A DNA stretch of 40,065 nucleotides from Candidatus Peribacter sp. (GTDB lineage Bacteria > Patescibacteriota > Gracilibacteria > Peribacterales > Peribacteraceae): NCBI GenBank assembly GCA_030647195.1, contig JAUSKD010000040.1, forward strand, positions 1-40,065, in the 5' to 3' direction. A program made the translations under genes and the position numbers. Under the pieces are notes generated by a model. It was given only the letters and a program-made list of their open reading frames with translations, was not told the origin of the DNA and searched no databases. Shown here one piece after another: positions 7,675 to 34,936 of this stretch; the stretch's first letter is position 1; each line of letters starts with the position of its first letter.

Positions 7675-9558
7675 TTATTGGGCGCTTTTGAGCGATTGGA
7701 GGAACAACTGAACACGCTCGTCGGATGCCACACTGTCTTTGAGGGAAGAGACGAACGCTCGCACATGAGCAGGGGATGAATCCGGATTGGCATAGTACCT
7801 TCGGAGCAGCGTTTCTCCATGCTTAGCGAGAACCTGGAGGCCGCGTTCAGGATCCCGAATCGCGTACCGGTTTCCCTCTGGGACGATGATGCTCTCTGCG
7901 AGAAGGATTTGGAGTTGGGCCAGTCCGGTGAAGTAATAGCGCTCGCCGCTGCCCTCGGGGGATTTCTGCGTGATGTAGTAGAGGATCGAAGAGAGTTTGG
8001 CGGCCAGCTGTTCCCTTGCATCCAGATCTCTCTGATTTTGCAGCCGTTGATGGAGCAGGTGTGCCCCTACTGTCTCTGCCTTGAGCTCTTCCAGTACCCA
8101 TGCCTCGCTCTGTTCGTTGAGCCCGATACGGTTGCTGATGGTCTGATCCATCCACGTAAAGAGCATATGGCCCGTTTCGTGCGCATCCAATTCTGTCAGT
8201 GCAGCTTGCGCAAAACGGTCCGGCGCCATCGTGATGCCGAAGACTTTTTGGAGCTGAGGCAGGTCTTCTTTGGCGGATTCCATCACGACGTCGGGATGCA
8301 GCAGCGAGTGGCCCGGTCTCTGCTCCGCATCCACGCGCCAGTAGAGGTTCGGCCCGAATCCCAGGGCGTGTGACGTGAGCACGGCGGGAGCGACCGTGCG
8401 GTATTCATCCACGAGGTGTTCCTTGCCGACGAGCAGCGAGTCGAAGAGTTTCTGACCTTCGCTGTGCGTGGCCGCAAGGCGTCCCATCAGATTCCGTGTA
8501 TGTGTATCCGTGAATCCGAGGCGCAGCTCCACGTCGACTTTGTTCGCGTCGCCGGCCACCGTGGGAATCGCCTGTGCGATCACCGCAAGCGGGCAGCCAT
8601 TCAGACTCAGTGCCGCCCCGGATTCATAGACATCTTTCCACAGGGCAGCGAGCGCTTCGGGGTTTGTGAGTGATGAGCCGTAGGCGGCGGCGAGCTTGCG
8701 CAGGAATGCAGGCAGATTCGCATACTTCTCCTGCGGCAACTGTCTTGCTGAAAGCAGTTGTTCTGTTTCATCCGCCAGTCGTTCGAAGTGTTTCTGGATT
8801 CTCGGCCATTCGAAAGGAAACACCTGAGCGTAGGTGAGAGGCACGATTTCATCGCTCTGCTCCGAAACGTACGGATCGTACAGGTACTGTGCCCCTTTCA
8901 TTTTTTCCTTGCCGAGGCGGGTAGCCGTGCTGCCGCCGGGCAGATCGGCGAGTTCCATCTGCTTGATGAACGCGTGATCGAAATACTTTCCGAGCGAGGC
9001 ACCCATCTCGAGGAGCAATGCGATTTCTGCACGCTCAACGCCCCACTCGGTCAGTTTTGCTGCGGGAATTTCTTTCAGCCACTGGCGTAAGAGACCGATT
9101 ACAGAAAGTTGCCGTTCCGAAGAGAGAAGCAACAGTTTTTTCCACGCGTCGGGCAGCGCCGTGCGCAGGGGCTCGAGCGCCCCCATTTGTCTACTGGAGA
9201 GGAGTGCATTGATGCGTTCGGGGTTGTGCAGAATCTCGCGGACCTCTTCAAGCCCAGATGTATCGGGGAGGGACTGGAGCCATTGCCCGGATTCCCGGGC
9301 GAGGAAATCAGGCAGCGGAGATGTGTTCCACTGCTCGCCGATGGTCCTCGTCGCGGCGCCAAACAGATCGTCGACCGAGTGAATCGTTTCGAGAGGGCAT
9401 GGAGGAGTTGTGCGTTCCAGGGATGTTTGAAGCATGCGTCGAACATCGTGCGTCACGGAACGGATGCTTTCGGGCAGGGATTCTACATGCAGAGGGTCCA
9501 GCCGGTTCGTTGGGTCGGGTGTGAGTTCAGCGACAGTGAGGAATCGCTGTTCAGACAT
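7675..9558 (-). CDS. HExxH zinc metallopeptidase-like protein, 627 aa (M49-like?)
   Basis: A large soluble protein without a signal peptide or membrane segment. The motif HETGH is at residues 460-464 and EELKAETVG follows at 490-498. HExxH plus EExKA(D/E) about 30 residues later is the zinc-binding pattern of gluzincins related to the dipeptidyl-peptidase III (M49) family, where the second Glu is the third zinc ligand. Classical M49 has a longer HExxxH, so membership is tentative. The region after the site (SSILYYITQKS, then YYFTGLAQLQILLAE) also resembles the helical end of M49 proteins. The N-terminal 400 residues are helical and unrecognised. It has its own TATAAT promoter. The likely role is cytosolic peptide hydrolysis, but the substrate is unknown. 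Confidence 0.7.
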   Translation of the reverse strand: MSEQRFLTVAELTPDPTNRLDPLHVESLPESIRSVTHDVRRMLQTSLERTTPPCPLETIHSVDDLFGAATRTIGEQWNTSPLPDFLARESGQWLQSLPDTSGLEEVREILHNPERINALLSSRQMGALEPLRTALPDAWKKLLLLSSERQLSVIGLLRQWLKEIPAAKLTEWGVERAEIALLLEMGASLGKYFDHAFIKQMELADLPGGSTATRLGKEKMKGAQYLYDPYVSEQSDEIVPLTYAQVFPFEWPRIQKHFERLADETEQLLSARQLPQEKYANLPAFLRKLAAAYGSSLTNPEALAALWKDVYESGAALSLNGCPLAVIAQAIPTVAGDANKVDVELRLGFTDTHTRNLMGRLAATHSEGQKLFDSLLVGKEHLVDEYRTVAPAVLTSHALGFGPNLYWRVDAEQRPGHSLLHPDVVMESAKEDLPQLQKVFGITMAPDRFAQAALTELDAHETGHMLFTWMDQTISNRIGLNEQSEAWVLEELKAETVGAHLLHQRLQNQRDLDAREQLAAKLSSILYYITQKSPEGSGERYYFTGLAQLQILLAESIIVPEGNRYAIRDPERGLQVLAKHGETLLRRYYANPDSSPAHVRAFVSSLKDSVASDERVQLFLQSLKSAQ

Positions 9559-10658: not shown

Positions 10659-10970
10659 ATGCCATCATTCTCTCAAATCAAGGACATGTTCCGCATGCAG
10701 CGCGAGGCGAAGAAGGTGAAGAGTGAGCTGAAAAAGATCCATGTGGAGGCGGAGGGGCGGGGAGTCAAGGTCGTCGTCTCGGCGGACATGGAGGTCGTCA
10801 GTATTGAGATCGCGCCGGATGCCGCACGCGAAACGCTGGGCCGCGAAATTGCCGATTGTCTGAATCGTGCGCTCAAGAAGGCGCAGGTTGTCTCGGCCGA
10901 GAAGATGCAGGGCGTGATGGGTGAGATGGGGTTTCCGACGGATAGCGGAATGAAGGGGATGGGGCAGTGA
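10659..10970 (+). CDS. YbaB/EbfC family DNA-binding protein
   Basis: 103 residues, the usual family length. The sequence has the YbaB pattern: an N-terminal amphipathic helix (KDMFRMQREAKKVKSELKKI), a beta sheet (VEAEGRGVKVVVSADMEVVSIEI), then a helix (REIADCLNRALKKAQVVSAEKM) and a GMKGM end. These proteins form dimers that bind DNA as nucleoid-associated factors, usually next to dnaX and recR; neither is here. The ATG at 10659 is preceded by TGTACCCT, a weak -10 ending 8 nt upstream, and no Shine-Dalgarno is visible. Confidence 0.88.
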   Translation: MPSFSQIKDMFRMQREAKKVKSELKKIHVEAEGRGVKVVVSADMEVVSIEIAPDAARETLGREIADCLNRALKKAQVVSAEKMQGVMGEMGFPTDSGMKGMGQ

Positions 10971-11771: not shown

Positions 11772-12776
11772 ATGAAGAAGCTTCTTCTCTTCCTCCTCGG
11801 CCTCTGCATTGTCGCGTATGCGTGGTACCTGCACGAGCTCTCGCCGTTCGGCGGGACTGCTGCCGTGCGCGTGAAGGTCGAACAAGGGATGAGCGTGGCG
11901 CAGGTGGGAGCGCTGCTGGAGGAGAAAGGTCTGATCCGCTCGCTTTCTGCCTTTAAGCTCTACATGAAGCTCAATGGGGCCGAGGCGGGTGTGCAGGCGG
12001 GGACCTTTATCTTCCGGCCGAATATGAGCGTCGAAGAGATTGTGAATGTTCTTCGATCCGGCAAGTCGGAGGAGGTTTCACTCACGATCCCGGAGGGATG
12101 GACGGTGACGGATATTGACGCGCTTATTGCATCCAAGGGACTTGCGGAATCAGGTGCCGTTCTCGATTGTCTGCATCGCTGCGACTTCTCGACGTTTGAT
12201 TTCCTGCCGCCTGTTTCCACGCAGGGGCTTGCTGAACGCGGCGGACGCCTCGAGGGGTACCTCTTCCCTGAAACCTACTTCGTGAATGAAGCCGAGTTTG
12301 TTCCCAAATTCTTTCTCGAGCGCCTGCTCGGCACGTTCCGTACGCGCGTGATCCAGGATCACAAGGACGAGATCGCCGTCTCGGGTCACTCTCTTCACGA
12401 AATCATGACCATGGCTTCGCTCGTCGAAGCGGAAACGCGCACCGATGCGGAGAGGCCGATTGTGGCGGGCATCCTCTGGAAGCGCCTTGAGGCCGGTATG
12501 CCGCTCGGGGTGGATGCTACTGTGCGCTACATTGTCGATAAATCGACGGAACCGATTACGCAATCCGACCTCGAGACGAAGAGTCCCTACAACACGCGCA
12601 AGTTTAAGGGGCTGCCACCGGGGCCCATCGAGAGCCCGGGGCTGACGAGCATCCTCGCAGCGCTCAAGCCGCAGGAGTCTCCCTACTGGTACTACCTGCA
12701 CGACAGCAAGGGCGTCATCCACTATGCAACGACGAATGACGAGCATAACGAGAATCGGAGGAAATACCTGAGGTAG
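11772..12776 (+). CDS. mltG: Endolytic murein transglycosylase MltG
   Basis: 334 residues from the ATG at 11772, chosen because it directly opens the membrane anchor (MKKLLLFLLGLCIVAYAW). In-frame ATGs at 11754 and 11727 are possible. A LysM-like subdomain covers about residues 30-100 (VEQGMSVAQVGALLEEKGLI, then GTFIFRPNMSVEEIVNVL). The YceG/MltG catalytic domain follows with RLEGYLFPETYF, the catalytic Glu region MASLVEAET, then GVDATVRY, SPYNTR, GLPPGPIESPGL and the YWYYLHDSKGVIHYATTNDEHN end. The enzyme cuts nascent glycan strands at the membrane and sets chain length. It fits the other wall genes in the window. Confidence 0.95.
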   Translation: MKKLLLFLLGLCIVAYAWYLHELSPFGGTAAVRVKVEQGMSVAQVGALLEEKGLIRSLSAFKLYMKLNGAEAGVQAGTFIFRPNMSVEEIVNVLRSGKSEEVSLTIPEGWTVTDIDALIASKGLAESGAVLDCLHRCDFSTFDFLPPVSTQGLAERGGRLEGYLFPETYFVNEAEFVPKFFLERLLGTFRTRVIQDHKDEIAVSGHSLHEIMTMASLVEAETRTDAERPIVAGILWKRLEAGMPLGVDATVRYIVDKSTEPITQSDLETKSPYNTRKFKGLPPGPIESPGLTSILAALKPQESPYWYYLHDSKGVIHYATTNDEHNENRRKYLR

Positions 12777-25643: not shown

Positions 25644-25741
25644 CACGCTCAATGGATCAGAGAATTTGACGTATGTGTAGAAAAACCTTCGATTATGCTC
25701 CCTTCTCATAATTGTGTAGTTCCATTCACTATTTGTTATTT

Positions 25742-25761
25742 TACCATAAAAATGGTATTAT
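25742..25761 (+). promoter_or_regulatory. Extended -10 TGGTATTAT with overlapping palindrome
   Basis: TGG plus TATTAT (25756-25761). The perfect inverted repeat TACCAT-AAAA-ATGGTA (25742-25757) overlaps its upstream half, a possible regulator site. The leader to the ATG at 25793 is about 25 nt with no Shine-Dalgarno. The rest of 25644-25741 shows only a weak ATTATG/CATAAT hairpin. Confidence 0.5.
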
Positions 25762-25792
25762 AGAGGTCCATACACACATACCCCCCATATTT

Positions 25793-27449
25793 ATGTCCGG
25801 GCACTCTCTTACCGCTTTCCGCATAATCTCTCATTGTGAGGACTCTCTGCGGTCGAAATTATTCAAAGGAATGCTGCTCATACTCCTGGGTCTTTCCATG
25901 GTAGTACCCAGTGTGCCTGCAGCGCATGCCGCTGCTGGTACGGCGCCGGGCCTTGGTACAGCTGCCAGCTATGCCATCTTTGGTGCGGCGGGCGTGACGA
26001 ATAACGTCGCCTCACCGACGCACATCTGGGGAAATGTTGGTGCCGATCTCCTCGCTTCCATCACGAATCTTGATGATGCGACGCAGGTGGATGGAACGAT
26101 CATCGCCCCGACACCTGCCCAGCTCCTGACCGACATCACCACTGCATACAATGCGCTGGCAAGCCAGCAGCCCGGCACGACGATCAGCCTGAGTGGACCC
26201 GCCGTAACAGTCACGCCAGGCGTCTATACCGTCAGCGCGGCGGAAACGTTGAATGGTACCGTCACGCTCGATGGTGCGGGGGTCTACATCTTCGGCAGCG
26301 ACTCCGCTTTCACAGTGGGGAATGGGGCGAAGGTTCTGCTGACGAATGGAGCAACTGCCTGCAATGTGTTTTGGCAGATTCCCTCCGCCATGACGATCGG
26401 CACCACAGCGGAGATGGTAGGAACGATTATTACAAATTCCGAGGCCATCACGCTCAATACGAGTGCAACCCTGCAAGGACGAGCCCTTTTCGAGGGTCGC
26501 CGCAGTGACGTTATTGAGCAACCAAATCACCGAGCCCACATGTGTCGCGGACGCTGCATCGACTGTTCAATATGGTCGAACGCTGCGACGCGGCCTGATC
26601 AGCGTGACAAAAATACCGGAGCCTTTGGCACTGCCCGGACCGGGATCAGTGACCTATACCTATAAAGTTGCGAACCCGGGACTCTACGAGCTGGACCGTG
26701 TTTCGCTTCTCGATAACCGGTGCAGTCCCGTGGTCTACATTTCCGGCGACACTAACGATGATGCACTGCTTCAAACCACTGAAGAGTGGACGTACCGTTG
26801 TACGGCAAATCTCTCGCAAGACACCTTTAACGAAGCTTTGGTCCTTGGGTATTTCAACGGTCTGCCCGTGACTGACGAGGCCTATGTCACCGTTCGTGTC
26901 GGCTCGCAGCTCCCGCCACCCCTGATTCACGTTGTGAAAACACCGAACTTGTTCCTTCTGCCGTTTGGGGGTGGAAAAGTGACGTATACCTATGAGGTCA
27001 GCAACCCCGGCGTTGTTGCATTGCATTACGTGCAGGTCACTGATGATACATGCGGTTCTCCCCGCTATGTTTCCGGTGATAGCAATGAAGACAACGCGTT
27101 GGATATGGACGAGACGTGGACCTACACCTGCCAGTCGGCCCTGACATTGACTACGACAAACACGGTCACCGTCACAGGAAATGCCAACAATGAGACGGCT
27201 AAAGACGTGGCATCGGCTACGGTTGTTGTCTCTCCCCGTCCTGTTGTTGTTGTTCCCGAGGTTCGCTTCCGGGCAGCTCCCATTCTTCCCCCTGCCCCGA
27301 CGCCTGAAGTGCCGCTTCTGCCCAATACGGGAGTGGGGCCTGAGGCAGCAAGTATTCCTTGGGGGATGATCGCGTCCGGTTTGTTCGTGACATGCGCATC
27401 TGTGTTTGCCACGTTCCAGGCAAAGCGCCACTTGTCGTCCAAGAACTAA
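25793..27449 (+). CDS. Ice-binding-like (DUF3494) LPNTG surface adhesin, apparent frameshift
   Basis: Two overlapping frames together encode one protein of about 550 residues; the frame changes at the T-run 26487-26490. The first part has a signal peptide (LFKGMLLILLGLSMVVPSVPAAHA) and a DUF3494 ice-binding-like beta-solenoid (AASYAIFGAAGVTN, GPAVTVTPGVYTV, LDGAGVYIFGSDSAF, then LQGRAL joining SRVAAVTLLSNQIT in the other frame). Two DUF11-like repeats follow (GSVTYTYKVANPGLYELDRVSLLDN and GKVTYTYEVSNPGVVALHYVQVTDD). The C-terminus has LPNTG, a membrane helix and a basic tail, a sortase signal. The sortase gene follows directly. If the extra T is real the protein is truncated and cannot be anchored. 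DUF3494 proteins bind ice or act as adhesins; adhesion is more likely here. Confidence 0.8.
26487..26490 (+). other. Frameshift point in the adhesin gene (TTTT)
   Basis: Removing one T joins the DUF3494 half (frame of 25793) to the repeat/LPNTG half (frame of 26463) and restores the family sequence GRAL-SRVAAVTL. It could be a sequencing error, a mutation, phase variation or +1 frameshifting at CTT TTC. Confidence 0.75.
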
Positions 27450-28913: not shown

Positions 28914-28934
28914 GGGGGGGGCGCATGGTACACT
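28914..28934 (+). promoter_or_regulatory. Promoter with G8 tract upstream of TGGTACACT
   Basis: TGG plus TACACT (28929-28934). A run of eight G at 28914-28921 lies in the expected -35/-10 spacer. A GTG start codon (28941) follows 6 nt after the -10 box, matching the leaderless spacing of other genes here. Confidence 0.5.
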
Positions 28935-28982
28935 GCGTCTGTGAGTGGTAACGATCTACCAGCGAGAAGAATTGTTTCCCTT

Positions 28983-28994
28983 GGGGGGGGGGGG
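28983..28994 (+). repeat. G12 homopolymer tract
   Basis: Twelve consecutive G between the leaderless GTG at 28941 and the beta-helix coding region. Frame 28941 stays open across the tract and stops at 29037. The beta-helix frame is open from 28952 through the tract. With 10 or 13 G the two frames would join. Confidence 0.85.
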
Positions 28995-29026
28995 CTCACT
29001 GTTGCAGCGGAAGCGATAGTGCGTTC

Positions 29027-31810
29027 GTGGGTAGATTGAGGGCTTTTTTTCTGCGGTGCACGCTCCTCCTCTCCGGCATTTTCCTCTCCCTCGCCGTCCC
29101 GTTTGTCGCACGCGCAACCGACTATTACGTCGATGCCACCGGTGGCATCGATGCCAACGCAGGCACCTCTCAGGCGGCACCATGGCAAACACTCGCAAAA
29201 GTAAATGCCTCCTCCTTCCAGCCAGGCGATCAGATTCTCCTCAAGAAGGGCGAGGTTTGGCGTGAGAAGCTGTTAATCCCTTCCTCGGGTGCGGCAGACA
29301 ACCGCATCGTCTTCGGGGCATACGGTTCTGGCGTCAATCCCAAGATTAACGGCTCGGCGCTCGTCAGTAATGCCGGATTCTCTCCGTACGCCGTATCGGG
29401 AGCAGCAGTATACAGCGCTACCACGACCACGGTTGGCGCCGCGGATGGCGGAGCGCGCAATTACCGCCAGATCGCGACAGTGAATGCAGACAGCTCTACT
29501 GTGACGATTCGCCTCACCGCTGCAGATACGCGCGATTGGGTGATTGCGGGCTGTGCGATCGGCCTGCGAACCTCCGGGGCATCGGCCTCTTCGCTGACAC
29601 GCATCACCTTCGGAGGTGGCAACAACGGCGTGACGATTACGGCGGGCGGATACGTGGATAGCGACCAAATTTCATTCTCTGTCGTTTCGGGGCAGACGTA
29701 CCTCATCCACGTGTACATGACGGAGCGCAGTTACAAACAACAAGCATCCGGTGCGGAGGGTTTTTACTACGACGCCCTCGCCGCCGATGAGACGCTGGTG
29801 GCAGCACCGACAGGAAGTCAGCTCATCTCGCTCAGCTCTGGCACGAGCTTCGTCACAGCGATTTATGGAGGTAACAAGACGATCTGGGCTTCGACGACCC
29901 TTCCATCCCATGCCGTCAGTTCCCTCACTTCCGCCAGTACGACGGCGACGGTCACCACTCCTTCTGCCCATCATCTTTTCGCAGGTCAGTACGTGACCAT
30001 GAAGGGCGCTACGCCAACCGGCTACAATATTACGGCGCAGGTCGCCAGTACGCCCAGTCCGACCCAATTCACATACACCGTTCCTGCAGGCCTTGCCTCC
30101 CCCGCAACCGGGGACATTTCGTATGAACTCAGCCATCCGGTTGCAATGTGGGAGAACAACGTCTTTCTCCTCAAACAGTCCTCTACCGGCGCTGTTGCCA
30201 GTGGGGCGGGGAAATGGTACTTCGACACTGCGACACGCACGCTCTATGTCAATGGATGGGACCAGAATAACCCTGCCACGAACGGAAAAACGTACGAAGT
30301 CGCGCATCTCGTGTACAGCATCTACGACAATGGGAAAAGCTATGTCGAAATTAAGGACATCAATTGCTTGCAGAGCTACGGATCGGCGGATGCCGACGGC
30401 GCGCTCACTGGTGTCTACATGAGTGGCATTTTTCTCGGTGGGAGCAATAACGTCGTCCATGATCTGGAGACGTACAACCACGCCCGACACAACTTTTTCT
30501 TCTACACGGGCAGTACTAATAATCTTGGATACAACCTGACGATTCGTGATGCAATCGGTACCACTCCTTTTGGAACCTTCTCAGGGGCGAACAACAATGT
30601 CCTCCGCAATAGCACGATCTATAACGCTTGCTCTGCCTGCACGGACGCTGGTCTGATCGTTATGCACGGTGGAGCCCACGATAATATCGTGGAGAAGAAC
30701 TACCTCTACGTCTCGGTTGGAGTACCTAGTTATTTCATCATCCAATATGACGCTGACACGGACAGAAACGTATACAGGTTCAACCGAATCCGTTTACTCA
30801 GTTCAGGGGGGACAGCAGGGATTCGCTTGACTACTTCGGACGACACCGAGATCTACGGGAATCTCTTCGAGATGTCGCCCTCGACATCCGCTGTCATCAA
30901 CATTCAAAGCGGCACAGGAGCGAAAGTATACAACAATACGATCATCGCCAATTCGACACTCTCTGCTTCCAACTATCAACTGTATGTCGCAAGCAGCCCG
31001 AACGTTGTGGTGAAGAACAACATTTTCAATGGTGCGTATGCCATGAAGCTGGATGCCGCCTCTCAATCGGGATTCGTTTCGGACTATAACGGCTTCTACA
31101 ACGCAAGCGGCGTGAAGTGGACGTGGGGTGCCAGCGACTACACTTCTTTCGGGGATTGGAAGTCGAACAGCGTGCAGGATAGCCACTCGTTCAATGCGGA
31201 TCCGCTCTTCACGGATGCTGCCAGCGATTATACGCTTCAATCGGCCTCACCAGCACGAGATGCCGGCGGCGATCTAGGTTCTTCATATGCGAATGGCCTT
31301 GATCCGGTGTCGACATGGCCAAGCGATGTCCGTTTGCTCGATCAGGGTCTTCACGGATCAGCGTGGGAAATCGGTGCCTACGTCTATTCGGACCTCCGTC
31401 CCACGCCCGGTGCCGGTGGAGCCGCCAACTACTGGCGTCGCCTCTACGAAAACGGTCTCGCCCCTCCCGATTTCGTGGAATGGTGGGAAGGGGGCAGCCA
31501 AACCTCCTCATCCTCCTCCGCTTCGTCCGTTTCTGCTTCATCCGCGACAAACGGACCTTCCTCTGCCATTACTCCAGTAAGTGTTCCATCTCCTCTTTCC
31601 TTTGCTGCCCCGCTCTCTCCTGCGGTGTCTGCTTCACTTCCTTCCATTTCTACACTTCCTCCTTCCTTTCAGCGTGTCCTGGAGCGCCTTCAGGAGCGTA
31701 TCAATCGTCGGCTGCGGGATCATCCTGAGCTGAAGACTTTCTTCGATCGGGTACTTGAGCGGGCGATGGCACGCCTAGAGCGGGCGGCTGCTCACGGGCA
31801 GACGCGCTGA
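29027..31810 (+). CDS. Secreted right-handed parallel beta-helix protein
   Basis: 927 residues from the GTG at 29027, which opens a signal peptide (FFLRCTLLLSGIFLSLAVPFVARA). The mature protein begins DYYVDATGGIDANAGTSQAAPWQTLAKVNA, the standard start of pectate-lyase-like and parallel beta-helix surface proteins. Repeated coils such as NNVLRNSTIYNAC, DNIVEKNYLYV, DTEIYGNLFEM, AKVYNNTIIAN and NVVVKNNIFNGA occur between about residues 470 and 680. A central insert with beta repeats precedes this. The C-terminal 120 residues are a Ser/Pro-rich linker and a charged helix (FQRVLERLQERINRRLRDHPEL); there is no LPxTG. The protein probably binds or cleaves polysaccharide outside the cell. Poly-G tracts upstream suggest on-off expression, in which case translation would begin at 28941. 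Confidence 0.85.
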   Translation: MGRLRAFFLRCTLLLSGIFLSLAVPFVARATDYYVDATGGIDANAGTSQAAPWQTLAKVNASSFQPGDQILLKKGEVWREKLLIPSSGAADNRIVFGAYGSGVNPKINGSALVSNAGFSPYAVSGAAVYSATTTTVGAADGGARNYRQIATVNADSSTVTIRLTAADTRDWVIAGCAIGLRTSGASASSLTRITFGGGNNGVTITAGGYVDSDQISFSVVSGQTYLIHVYMTERSYKQQASGAEGFYYDALAADETLVAAPTGSQLISLSSGTSFVTAIYGGNKTIWASTTLPSHAVSSLTSASTTATVTTPSAHHLFAGQYVTMKGATPTGYNITAQVASTPSPTQFTYTVPAGLASPATGDISYELSHPVAMWENNVFLLKQSSTGAVASGAGKWYFDTATRTLYVNGWDQNNPATNGKTYEVAHLVYSIYDNGKSYVEIKDINCLQSYGSADADGALTGVYMSGIFLGGSNNVVHDLETYNHARHNFFFYTGSTNNLGYNLTIRDAIGTTPFGTFSGANNNVLRNSTIYNACSACTDAGLIVMHGGAHDNIVEKNYLYVSVGVPSYFIIQYDADTDRNVYRFNRIRLLSSGGTAGIRLTTSDDTEIYGNLFEMSPSTSAVINIQSGTGAKVYNNTIIANSTLSASNYQLYVASSPNVVVKNNIFNGAYAMKLDAASQSGFVSDYNGFYNASGVKWTWGASDYTSFGDWKSNSVQDSHSFNADPLFTDAASDYTLQSASPARDAGGDLGSSYANGLDPVSTWPSDVRLLDQGLHGSAWEIGAYVYSDLRPTPGAGGAANYWRRLYENGLAPPDFVEWWEGGSQTSSSSSASSVSASSATNGPSSAITPVSVPSPLSFAAPLSPAVSASLPSISTLPPSFQRVLERLQERINRRLRDHPELKTFFDRVLERAMARLERAAAHGQTR

Positions 31811-31957: not shown

Positions 31958-34936
31958 ATGCCGAAGAAGCAGAACGCATCCATCCGCACCCAATCAACCA
32001 AGGCGTTCGATGAGCGCTTTGCCGGCCTGAATGAAGGGCAGAAACGTGCGGTCGAGACGATCGAGGGGCCGGTGATGGTGGTGGCCGGGCCGGGGACGGG
32101 CAAAACCGAGGTCTTGGCCATGCGCACGGCGAATATCCTGCGCCGCACGCAGATGCGCCCGACGAACATTCTCTGCCTCACCTTCTCTACTTCCGGGGCG
32201 AAGGCGATGCGCGAGCGGCTCAGGCAGATCATCGGTCCCGATGCGTACGGGGTCACCGTGAGCACCGTGCACAGCTTCTGCAACGATCTGATTCAGCAGT
32301 ACCCGCACGTGTTCGTGAATTTCCGTGCCCTTGAGCAGGTCAGCACCATCGAGCAACTGCAGATCGTTCGCAGAGCGATCAAAGAGCTTGGGCAGCGGTC
32401 CGAGCTCTACACACCCGTCGCGGAGCACGATCGCGCCGCGGACGTGCTGGATCGCATCACGCAGATGAAGAAAGAGGGGATCAACCCTGACGACCTTGTG
32501 AAACACGTGGAGGTCTACGCCGAGGAATTGAAGAAGACGCCCACTGGCCGGGAGAGGGATTTGAGCAGCAAGGCATACAAGGATGATCTGAAGAAGGTGC
32601 AGCAGTTCCGGGAATTCATCGCGGTCTACAGGGCGTACATCGGGGAGCTCGCGGCCACCCACCGGTATGATTTCGATGACATGGTGCTCATCGCGCTTCA
32701 GGCGCTGAAGGAGCACGAATGGCTGCTCGAATCACTGCAGGTGCGCTACCAGTACATTCTGGTTGACGAGTTTCAGGATTTGAACGGAGCGCAGAACCGT
32801 CTTCTCGATCTGCTCACGACGTATGCGTACGTGCAGCAGGATCCCAATATCTTCGTCGTCGGGGATGACGATCAGGCGATTTTCCGCTTTCAGGGCGCGA
32901 ATATCGGGAATATGCAGTCATTTCTCGAGAGGTTCCCCAAGACGGCGGTGATGACACTCGTGACGAATTACCGCTCCACCCAGCCGATTCTGGATGCCGC
33001 TTCCGCCGTGATAGCCGCGAATGAGGAACGTCTGGCGAAGGTGATCAAGGGTATTGAAAAAAAACTGGTTGCGGGCAGGCAGAAGGGCGGCGTCAAACCG
33101 CAATTCATCCGCTATCCCGATACGAGCACGGAGTATGCGGGGATCGCGGGTATGCTCCAAAACGGAAAGAAAGAGGGGATTCCCTGGAAAGAGATGGCGG
33201 TTATCTGCCGCAGGAACGAAGAAGTGCTGGAGATCGCGGATACGCTGACTGCTGCCGGTGTTCCCACGGTGGTCGCCGCCAAGCAGGACCTGATCCAGCA
33301 CCCGCAGGTTTTGCACGCGGTGGCACTGCTCCGTGCCATTCATGAACAGGAGAATTCCAGTTTGCTTGCGGGAGCGTTGGCTCTGCCGTGCTTTCAGTGT
33401 CATCCGGCGGAATTGGGGAGGCTCTTCATGGATTTCCGCACCTTTAAGCGCACGAAAGAGAAAGTCAGCCTGCACGAGTATTTGCTGAAGGAGCCGTCAC
33501 TTCCCGCATCAATCAGGAAAGCGCATGAGTTCATCATGAAAATGCATCAGGGCATTCCCAGCGTCACGCTCACGGCGCTGGTTGCGGATGTCCTGACACA
33601 TTCAGGTCTCTTGCCGCCCACGGAGGCAAAGCAGGCGGACCCACGCATTATCGCCGGACTGCATGCGTTCTACGAGTATGTGAAGAGCCGTTGCAGTGAA
33701 GTGAAAACAACGTCGTTAGCCTCACTGCTGTCCGATATCGATCAGTACATGAACGAGAAGAAACTGAGACTGGAGTACGACCTGCCGCATCTGACGCAGG
33801 ATGGCGTGCAGCTGATGACCGGCCACGGGGCCAAGGGGCTGGAGTTCGATCTGGTGATCGTGCCGGATGTGCGGTACCGCAACTGGGGCAACAGGAACAG
33901 CGGCAATTCCCTCGCGCTTCCCGATCACCTGATCATCGGCATCGACAGGGAGGTCGAGAAGAGAGCGGGGCAGGAAGACGAGCGCCGGCTCTTCTTTGTT
34001 GCCATGACGCGTGCAAGACGCTCGCTCTCCCTCACCTTCCCCGAGACGTACCGGAGTGGAGCGCAGATGCGCGATGCACAGGTGAGCAGCTTCGTTGCGG
34101 AGGCAGGAGATCACGTGGACGAAGTCACGCTGTCCCAGGATCAATTGCCGACACCCATCGAAACCTTGCGCACACCGCCGCTGGTGATTGATTCGGCGTT
34201 TCGTGCATTCTTACAGGAACGATTGGAGGAATATGAATTGTCGGTTACGGCTCTCAACGTGTTTCTGGATGGGGAGACAGGTCCGCAGAAATTTCTCTGG
34301 GAGCAACTACTCCAAATGCCCAGTGAGAAGAAACCTGCCATGGCATTCGGGACCGCTGTTCATGCGGCCCTGGAAGAGAGGAACGTCGCATGGCAACAGG
34401 GGGAAGCATTTTCGGTTGATGCGCTGGTGGATGCCTTTCAGAATCATCTGAAGAGAGAAATCCTCACGCGCGAGAAACTGGAGCACTATCAGTTGATTGG
34501 CGGTGATATCGTTCGTCGGTACGGCGAACAGACCTCCTCCGGCATTCCACTCGTGCTCTCGACGGAACGGACATTTCACGCGCTCGTGGATGACGTGCCG
34601 ATCAAAGGCAAGGTGGACCGCATCGACCTCTTTGAGCCAAACGGCAGGGAGTGCCGCATTCTGGATTACAAGACCGGCCAGACCAAGAAGACGGAGGACG
34701 CCGTCCGTAAGAAGGAGGATCTCTTCAGGCAGCTGACGTTCTACAAGATCCTCTGCGATGCGGATCCCAAGTTCATTCACGAGGCGAAACGCTTCACCTT
34801 AGACTTCATCGGCAATGAGGATGAGGCGCGGCGCGAGATCAGTTTTGAGATCACGCAGCAGGAAGTGCAAGAGCTGAAGACTCTTATCAAGAAGGTCTGG
34901 ACCAAGATCACCGCGCTGGATTTCACGCCACTGTAG
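31958..34936 (+). CDS. UvrD/Rep-family helicase fused to PD-(D/E)XK nuclease
   Basis: 992 residues from the ATG at 31958. The superfamily 1A helicase motifs appear in order: LNEGQKRAVETIEGPVMVVAGPGTGKTEVL (Q motif and Walker A near residue 43), FSTSGAKAMRERL (Ia), YILVDEFQDLN (motif II near 269), GDDDQAIFRFQGAN (III), TNYRST (IV), MTGHGAKGLEFDLVIVP (V) and RRLFFVAMTRARRSL (VI). The C-terminal 230 residues hold a Cas4/RecB-like nuclease: AFGTAVHAALE, GKVDRID (near 884) and CRILDYKTGQTKK (near 902), then a QLTFYKIL helix. This resembles AddA/AdnA-type helicase-nucleases that process DNA ends for recombination. No AddB partner is visible. It is monocistronic. Confidence 0.93.
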   Translation: MPKKQNASIRTQSTKAFDERFAGLNEGQKRAVETIEGPVMVVAGPGTGKTEVLAMRTANILRRTQMRPTNILCLTFSTSGAKAMRERLRQIIGPDAYGVTVSTVHSFCNDLIQQYPHVFVNFRALEQVSTIEQLQIVRRAIKELGQRSELYTPVAEHDRAADVLDRITQMKKEGINPDDLVKHVEVYAEELKKTPTGRERDLSSKAYKDDLKKVQQFREFIAVYRAYIGELAATHRYDFDDMVLIALQALKEHEWLLESLQVRYQYILVDEFQDLNGAQNRLLDLLTTYAYVQQDPNIFVVGDDDQAIFRFQGANIGNMQSFLERFPKTAVMTLVTNYRSTQPILDAASAVIAANEERLAKVIKGIEKKLVAGRQKGGVKPQFIRYPDTSTEYAGIAGMLQNGKKEGIPWKEMAVICRRNEEVLEIADTLTAAGVPTVVAAKQDLIQHPQVLHAVALLRAIHEQENSSLLAGALALPCFQCHPAELGRLFMDFRTFKRTKEKVSLHEYLLKEPSLPASIRKAHEFIMKMHQGIPSVTLTALVADVLTHSGLLPPTEAKQADPRIIAGLHAFYEYVKSRCSEVKTTSLASLLSDIDQYMNEKKLRLEYDLPHLTQDGVQLMTGHGAKGLEFDLVIVPDVRYRNWGNRNSGNSLALPDHLIIGIDREVEKRAGQEDERRLFFVAMTRARRSLSLTFPETYRSGAQMRDAQVSSFVAEAGDHVDEVTLSQDQLPTPIETLRTPPLVIDSAFRAFLQERLEEYELSVTALNVFLDGETGPQKFLWEQLLQMPSEKKPAMAFGTAVHAALEERNVAWQQGEAFSVDALVDAFQNHLKREILTREKLEHYQLIGGDIVRRYGEQTSSGIPLVLSTERTFHALVDDVPIKGKVDRIDLFEPNGRECRILDYKTGQTKKTEDAVRKKEDLFRQLTFYKILCDADPKFIHEAKRFTLDFIGNEDEARREISFEITQQEVQELKTLIKKVWTKITALDFTPL

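Follow-up and report, generated by a model that had tools for sequence, protein, structure and literature searches.

A candidate poly-G phase-variation cassette upstream of a secreted beta-helix-like protein gene in Candidatus Peribacter

The stretch of DNA analyzed here (the window) comprises 40,065 nucleotides of contig JAUSKD010000040.1 from Candidatus Peribacter sp. (assembly GCA_030647195.1), and the locus of interest is read from its forward strand. A secreted right-handed beta-helix-like protein of 927 residues is predicted at 29027..31810, beginning with the signal peptide VGRLRAFFLRCTLLLSGIFLSLAVPFVARA (29027..29116), which was recognized by inspection. According to a phmmer search, the N-terminal part of the protein is related to GH136 lacto-N-biosidase beta-helix chains (best E value, 2.7e-13), a match that covers residues 29 to 109 and hence part of the protein only. 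No domain was matched in a Pfam search, the beta-helix-like repeats are visible by eye only, and an AlphaFold2 model of the whole protein computed without an alignment had a pLDDT of 37, i.e., an uninformative single-sequence fold. The C-terminal region (31409..31807) consists of the motif YWRRLYExGLAPxDFVEWWE, a Ser-rich stretch, and a helical tail. The motif and the Ser-rich part are common to secreted proteins of two related genomes (G002, locus L095; G004, locus L097), and this C-terminal module is possibly a surface-retention or anchoring domain. The module ends with RICARVDxWIP...SPRR in G002 and G004 and with a different helical tail in the window. The genes directly upstream encode a sortase and a transporter of the LysE type, and we infer that the protein may have a carbohydrate-active or adhesive role at the cell surface. 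Between rpoD and the sortase gene (25712-27449), the window also encodes a protein with an ice-binding-like domain and DUF11/DUF7507 surface repeats; neither feature is present at the sister loci in G003 and G004. On the downstream side, the synteny of the locus is fixed by a uvrD/RecB-like helicase-nuclease gene (31958..34936, forward strand), whose product is 80-91% identical across the genus.

In the region 5' of the secreted protein, a sequence-only reading of this DNA had recognized a G8 run in the promoter spacer (28914..28921) and a G12 run (28983..28994), and both positions proved exact to the base. The G8 run is located just 5' of an extended -10 element, TGGTACACT (28926..28934). As that reading had it, a GTG at 28941 follows the last T of this element after 6 nt and opens a leader ORF (28941..29039) that traverses the G12 tract, 39 nt from the GTG, and stops at TGA 29037-29039. 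At the assembled length of 12 G, the ORF encodes 32 residues with the translation MSGNDLPARRIVSLGGGGLTVAAEAIVRSWVD. Likewise, the beta-helix frame is indeed open from 28952. The segment 3' of the tract, TCACTGTTGCAGCGGAAGCGATAG (28996..29019), reads HCCSG in the frame of the secreted protein. A frame table for tract lengths (n) of 7 to 14 indicated that GTG28941 joins the beta-helix frame at n = 7, 10, and 13, in agreement with the earlier proposal that the two frames fuse with 10 or 13 G and remain separate with 12. Given a start at GTG28941, the length of the tract thus alters the reading frame, and in the assembled sequence this frame is OFF for the secreted protein. Several potential starts had escaped the earlier reading. 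A second GTG, at 28945, joins the beta-helix frame at n = 8, 11, and 14; no upstream start in the window joins it at n = 9 or 12. In addition, GTG29027 and TTG29036 are in-frame starts located 3' of the tract and before a good signal peptide. It had likewise been missed that, with 12 G, TTG29036 shares bases with the TGA 29037 that ends the leader, an overlap that makes translational coupling conceivable.

Homopolymers of such length had been described as rare in this DNA, a statement borne out by run-length statistics for 906 kb of the organism's own genome, sampled by region and including the window. The counts of G/C runs were 1468 for runs of at least 5, 289 for at least 6, 34 for at least 7, and 7 for at least 8 nt, and two of the last seven are the G8 and G12 tracts described here. 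Run counts drop about 4- to 8-fold per extra base up to length 7, and a rough extrapolation of this tail gives an expected ~0.01-0.05 runs of 12 per genome. By this estimate, which is rough, chance is a poor explanation for G12. The whole genome of 1.35 Mb holds only nine runs of at least 8, two of which sit 61 bp apart at this locus, and G12 is the longest of all. It is therefore long enough to slip, far above chance for this genome, and far outside its run-length distribution. The other G-runs of at least 8 found in the genus were set aside, as most of them fall in low-complexity coding sequence or in G/C-rich repeat elements between genes, and their layout is different. Some intergenic G/C-rich elements contain G-runs followed by GGGTGAGGC-like sequence (contigs C35 at 5184 and C38 at 7624 of the window's own genome, C9 of G002, and C12 of G004) and possibly constitute a REP-like family.

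A promoter scan of the same 906 kb yielded 488 TGnTAnnnT sites, and the starts opening at least 120 codons were sorted by their spacing from these sites. At a spacing of 6 nt, 26 ATG and 8 GTG starts were found, compared with ~1-3 at most other spacings. Since starts peak at 6 nt after TGnTAnnnT genome-wide, GTG28941 is a credible start, and leaderless translation appears to be common in this organism. The uvrD gene is itself preceded by TGCTATGCT, 6 nt, and an ATG. We infer that the mRNA of the secreted protein is probably leaderless and begins at GTG28941.

A related cassette was found in Candidatus Peribacteraceae isolate STB_147 (G002), which belongs to the same genus and to a different species. 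It aligns with the window over 162 bp (71% identity; E value, 1e-11), occupies the same place 5' of uvrD (whose products are 91% identical), and holds in succession G8, TGGTACACT, 6 nt, GTG, G10, and TCACTGTTGCAGCGGAGGCGGTAG. The -10 element and its 6-nt distance to the GTG are thus kept in both genomes, and the conserved segment 3' of the tract differs at 2 of 24 nt. A long tract is also kept in place with a different length, G12 in the window versus G10 in G002; this comparison involves one relative only, and the exact length of the G002 tract is uncertain because that genome was assembled at 3.6x coverage. In G002, the cassette is followed by a gene for a secreted hydrolase of the GDSL/SGNH type (PF13472; E value, 6e-8) in place of the beta-helix gene. 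No ATG, GTG, or TTG was found between G10 and the signal-peptide core of this secreted frame, a possible exception being a CTG preceded by GGAGG. Because no such codon exists 3' of G10, the canonical start would lie 5' of the tract and the tract would be translated; this gap provides the strongest indication that the reading frame includes the tract. The leaderless GTG/ATG of G002 joins the secreted frame at 9 and 12 G, and an internal ATG joins it at 7, 10, and 13 G. With the assembled G10, the leaderless frame is OFF and the secreted protein is in frame only from the internal ATG, from which it may be ON. Between the tract and the mature protein, the window and G002 are 52% identical, with 24, 16, and 20 changes at the three codon positions; translation of this stretch gains no independent support, since changes are not in excess at third positions. 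Given that the same 5' cassette precedes a different secreted protein in G002, the switch appears to have been kept while the exported cargo was exchanged at the locus. At the G002 locus (L095; contig C19), the 3' end of rpoD occurs a second time, at ~7985-8060 on the minus strand between a secreted-protein gene and the cassette, which suggests insertion or recombination at rpoD.

The cassette was seen in these two genomes only. Neither it nor such a gene was found at the uvrD locus of the other three species of the genus (G001, G003, and G004). A pattern of G8 or longer within 36 nt of a leaderless start matched a single locus among 353 genomes of the class, namely the G002 cassette; the window cannot match this pattern because its start-to-tract gap of 39 nt exceeds the 36 nt allowed. 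A candidate third cassette in G063 was rejected, as it has different surroundings, no G8, and no conserved tail. The viral contigs searched contained no copy of the cassette.

Mononucleotide and dinucleotide repeats slip far more often once MutS is lost. The MutS_V domain had no match in the window's own genome (G000), in G001 to G003, or in most relatives tested, with a control search positive in 11 of 14 known genomes. Two weaker matches were obtained in G004, inside a 1266-residue frame. A simple-repeat scan of 906 kb of the own genome returned only one repeat comparable to G12, a (GA)22 that lies where a DGR reverse-transcriptase gene begins (contig C47, 9436-9479; locus L171). This locus bears the hallmark of a DGR, i.e., a template-like copy (10702-10833) and a variable copy (12418-12550) separated by 20 substitutions, all of which fall at T of the template-like copy, corresponding to A on the other strand. 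A 5' repeat is carried by all four DGR reverse transcriptases of the family that were examined (L171, L241, L242, and L096): (GA)22 in G000, (GA)20 in G016, which belongs to another genus, (CT)16 in G002, and C10 in G001. No comparable repeat was found in ~16-18 reverse transcriptases from other families of the class, one of which has T8 before its ATG, and the repeat is also absent from other, more distant reverse transcriptases of the family, which may or may not belong to DGRs. In all four DGR genes, no canonical start was found between the repeat and the conserved first reverse-transcriptase motif. The ATG nearest the promoter is in frame in two of them (G000 and G002) and out of frame in the other two (G016 and G001); in G016, another in-frame ATG overlaps the -10 element. 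G000 and G016 have a leader in common, and their reading frames are shifted relative to each other because the repeats differ by two GA units. It is thus possible that the DGR reverse transcriptase is phase variable by means of its repeat, and the (GA)22 would then couple two localized hypermutation systems in one genome. A literature search returned no paper combining a DGR with slipped-strand switching.

The best-supported reading of the locus, and one that we consider probable, is that G12 is a translational contingency (phase-variation) tract acting by poly-G slippage. Transcription from the extended -10 element would yield a leaderless mRNA beginning at GTG28941, and translation from this codon would run through the tract. 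Replication slippage to n = 1 modulo 3 (10 or 13) would carry the frame into HCCSG, the signal peptide, and the beta-helix protein (ON), whereas translation at n = 12 would end at TGA29037 after 32 codons (OFF, or low if TTG29036 or GTG29027 allows re-initiation). In G002, the corresponding cassette at this locus would drive another secreted protein. That the tract slips in living cells, that expression is switched ON and OFF, and that the protein is exposed at the surface are all predictions from the sequence. The phase-variable expression put forward by the sequence-only reading is thus backed in part, by the leaderless GTG, the control of the frame by G12, the tracts conserved in a sister species, the MutS-less background, the similar repeats at other genes of the lineage, and the secreted beta-helix-related product. 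Findings that speak against it include the assembled lengths of both tracts, which leave the leaderless GTG frame OFF, the occurrence of the cassette in two genomes only, and, in the window, a downstream GTG29027 with a good signal peptide.

The last of these underlies the main rival, namely constitutive synthesis of the protein, with translation starting at GTG29027 or TTG29036 or coupled to the leader stop TGA29037; the tract would then be a hypermutable yet unimportant part of a 5' region or leader peptide. GTG29027 is in frame before a complete signal peptide, and the TTGA overlap at n = 12 could permit re-initiation. However, the nearest purine-rich sequence, GGAAG (29008-29012), is separated from GTG29027 by 14 nt, more than is usual for a ribosome-binding site, and the G002 gene lacks ATG, GTG, and TTG 3' of its tract. 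A neutral G12, moreover, should erode over time, whereas both tracts have been retained in the two species; we regard this rival as rather unlikely. It is improbable that errors of assembly or sequencing account for the tract lengths, or that a long tract is fixed without biological switching. In MAG assemblies such as these, nothing is less reliable than the length of a homopolymer, the G002 contig has a coverage of 3.6x, and neither assembled length puts the leaderless GTG in frame; nonetheless, long G tracts occupy the same two places in the genomes of two species, so that error may have changed a length and could hardly have invented both tracts twice.

A transcriptional switch, in which the length of G8 would set the spacing of a -35-like TTG to the -10 element, is quite improbable. 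The G8 run does lie in the promoter spacer, as proposed, directly 5' of the -10 element and conserved in both species, and the TTG starts 19-20 nt from the -10 element, where three to four additional G would reach the spacing of a mild genomic enrichment of TTG. As a switch, though, it is only a weak candidate. An extended -10 element (TGn) usually makes a -35 element dispensable, and the tract numbers eight in both species. A sigma-70 consensus was looked for and not found, and since few extended -10 promoters in this genome show a -35 signal, a strong switching effect of the G8 spacer becomes less likely. Finally, a structured RNA leader (riboswitch or attenuator) pairing the G tract with a C/U-rich segment 5' of it was rejected as highly improbable: the window leader can be folded with the G tract in a stem, but the folds are neither stable nor common to both species (z-scores, -1.25 for the window and +1.70 for G002), and Rfam gave no match above the gathering score.

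As a translational contingency tract, G12 would resemble the poly-G/C loci near the 5' end of surface-protein genes in Campylobacter, Neisseria, Treponema, and others (PMC5084427, PMC7168839, PMC7864442). Shared features are a long run of G within the promoter or the opening codons of a gene for an exported protein, a frame or spacing set by tract length, and an expectation of reversible slippage. The locus differs from them in its leaderless GTG, its extended -10 element, the lack of detectable MutS, and its Patescibacteria host, and its length variation is a prediction. In Gracilibacteria BD1-5, a gene with a hypervariable 9-mer repeat, in a region encoding PTD, likewise represents repeat-driven variation of one gene in a Patescibacteria lineage (PMC6851277). 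The 9-mer repeat varies protein content, and mononucleotide frame switching is not reported in the portion of that article considered here. The DGRs of Patescibacteria are also localized hypermutation systems, and the own genome carries one on contig C47; they act by adenine-directed mutagenic homing rather than slippage (PMC8144416), and the reverse-transcriptase gene of the own DGR bears a repeat at its start.

More tentatively, and at somewhat less than even chances, the Peribacteraceae, most of which appear to be without MutS, may use 5' simple-sequence switches at surface and self-diversification genes. These would include a portable leaderless promoter plus poly-G cassette with exchanged cargo and a DGR reverse transcriptase that is phase variable through (GA)n, (CT)n, or Cn. 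If such DGR switching is true, hypermutation of the target protein would be switched on stochastically in a fraction of the cells only. Most Patescibacteria are uncultured, with a presumed host-associated lifestyle, and a literature search found no earlier report of classical phase variation in this group. A frame switch conserved in place while its cargo is exchanged would, if true, mean that classical phase variation operates in Patescibacteria.
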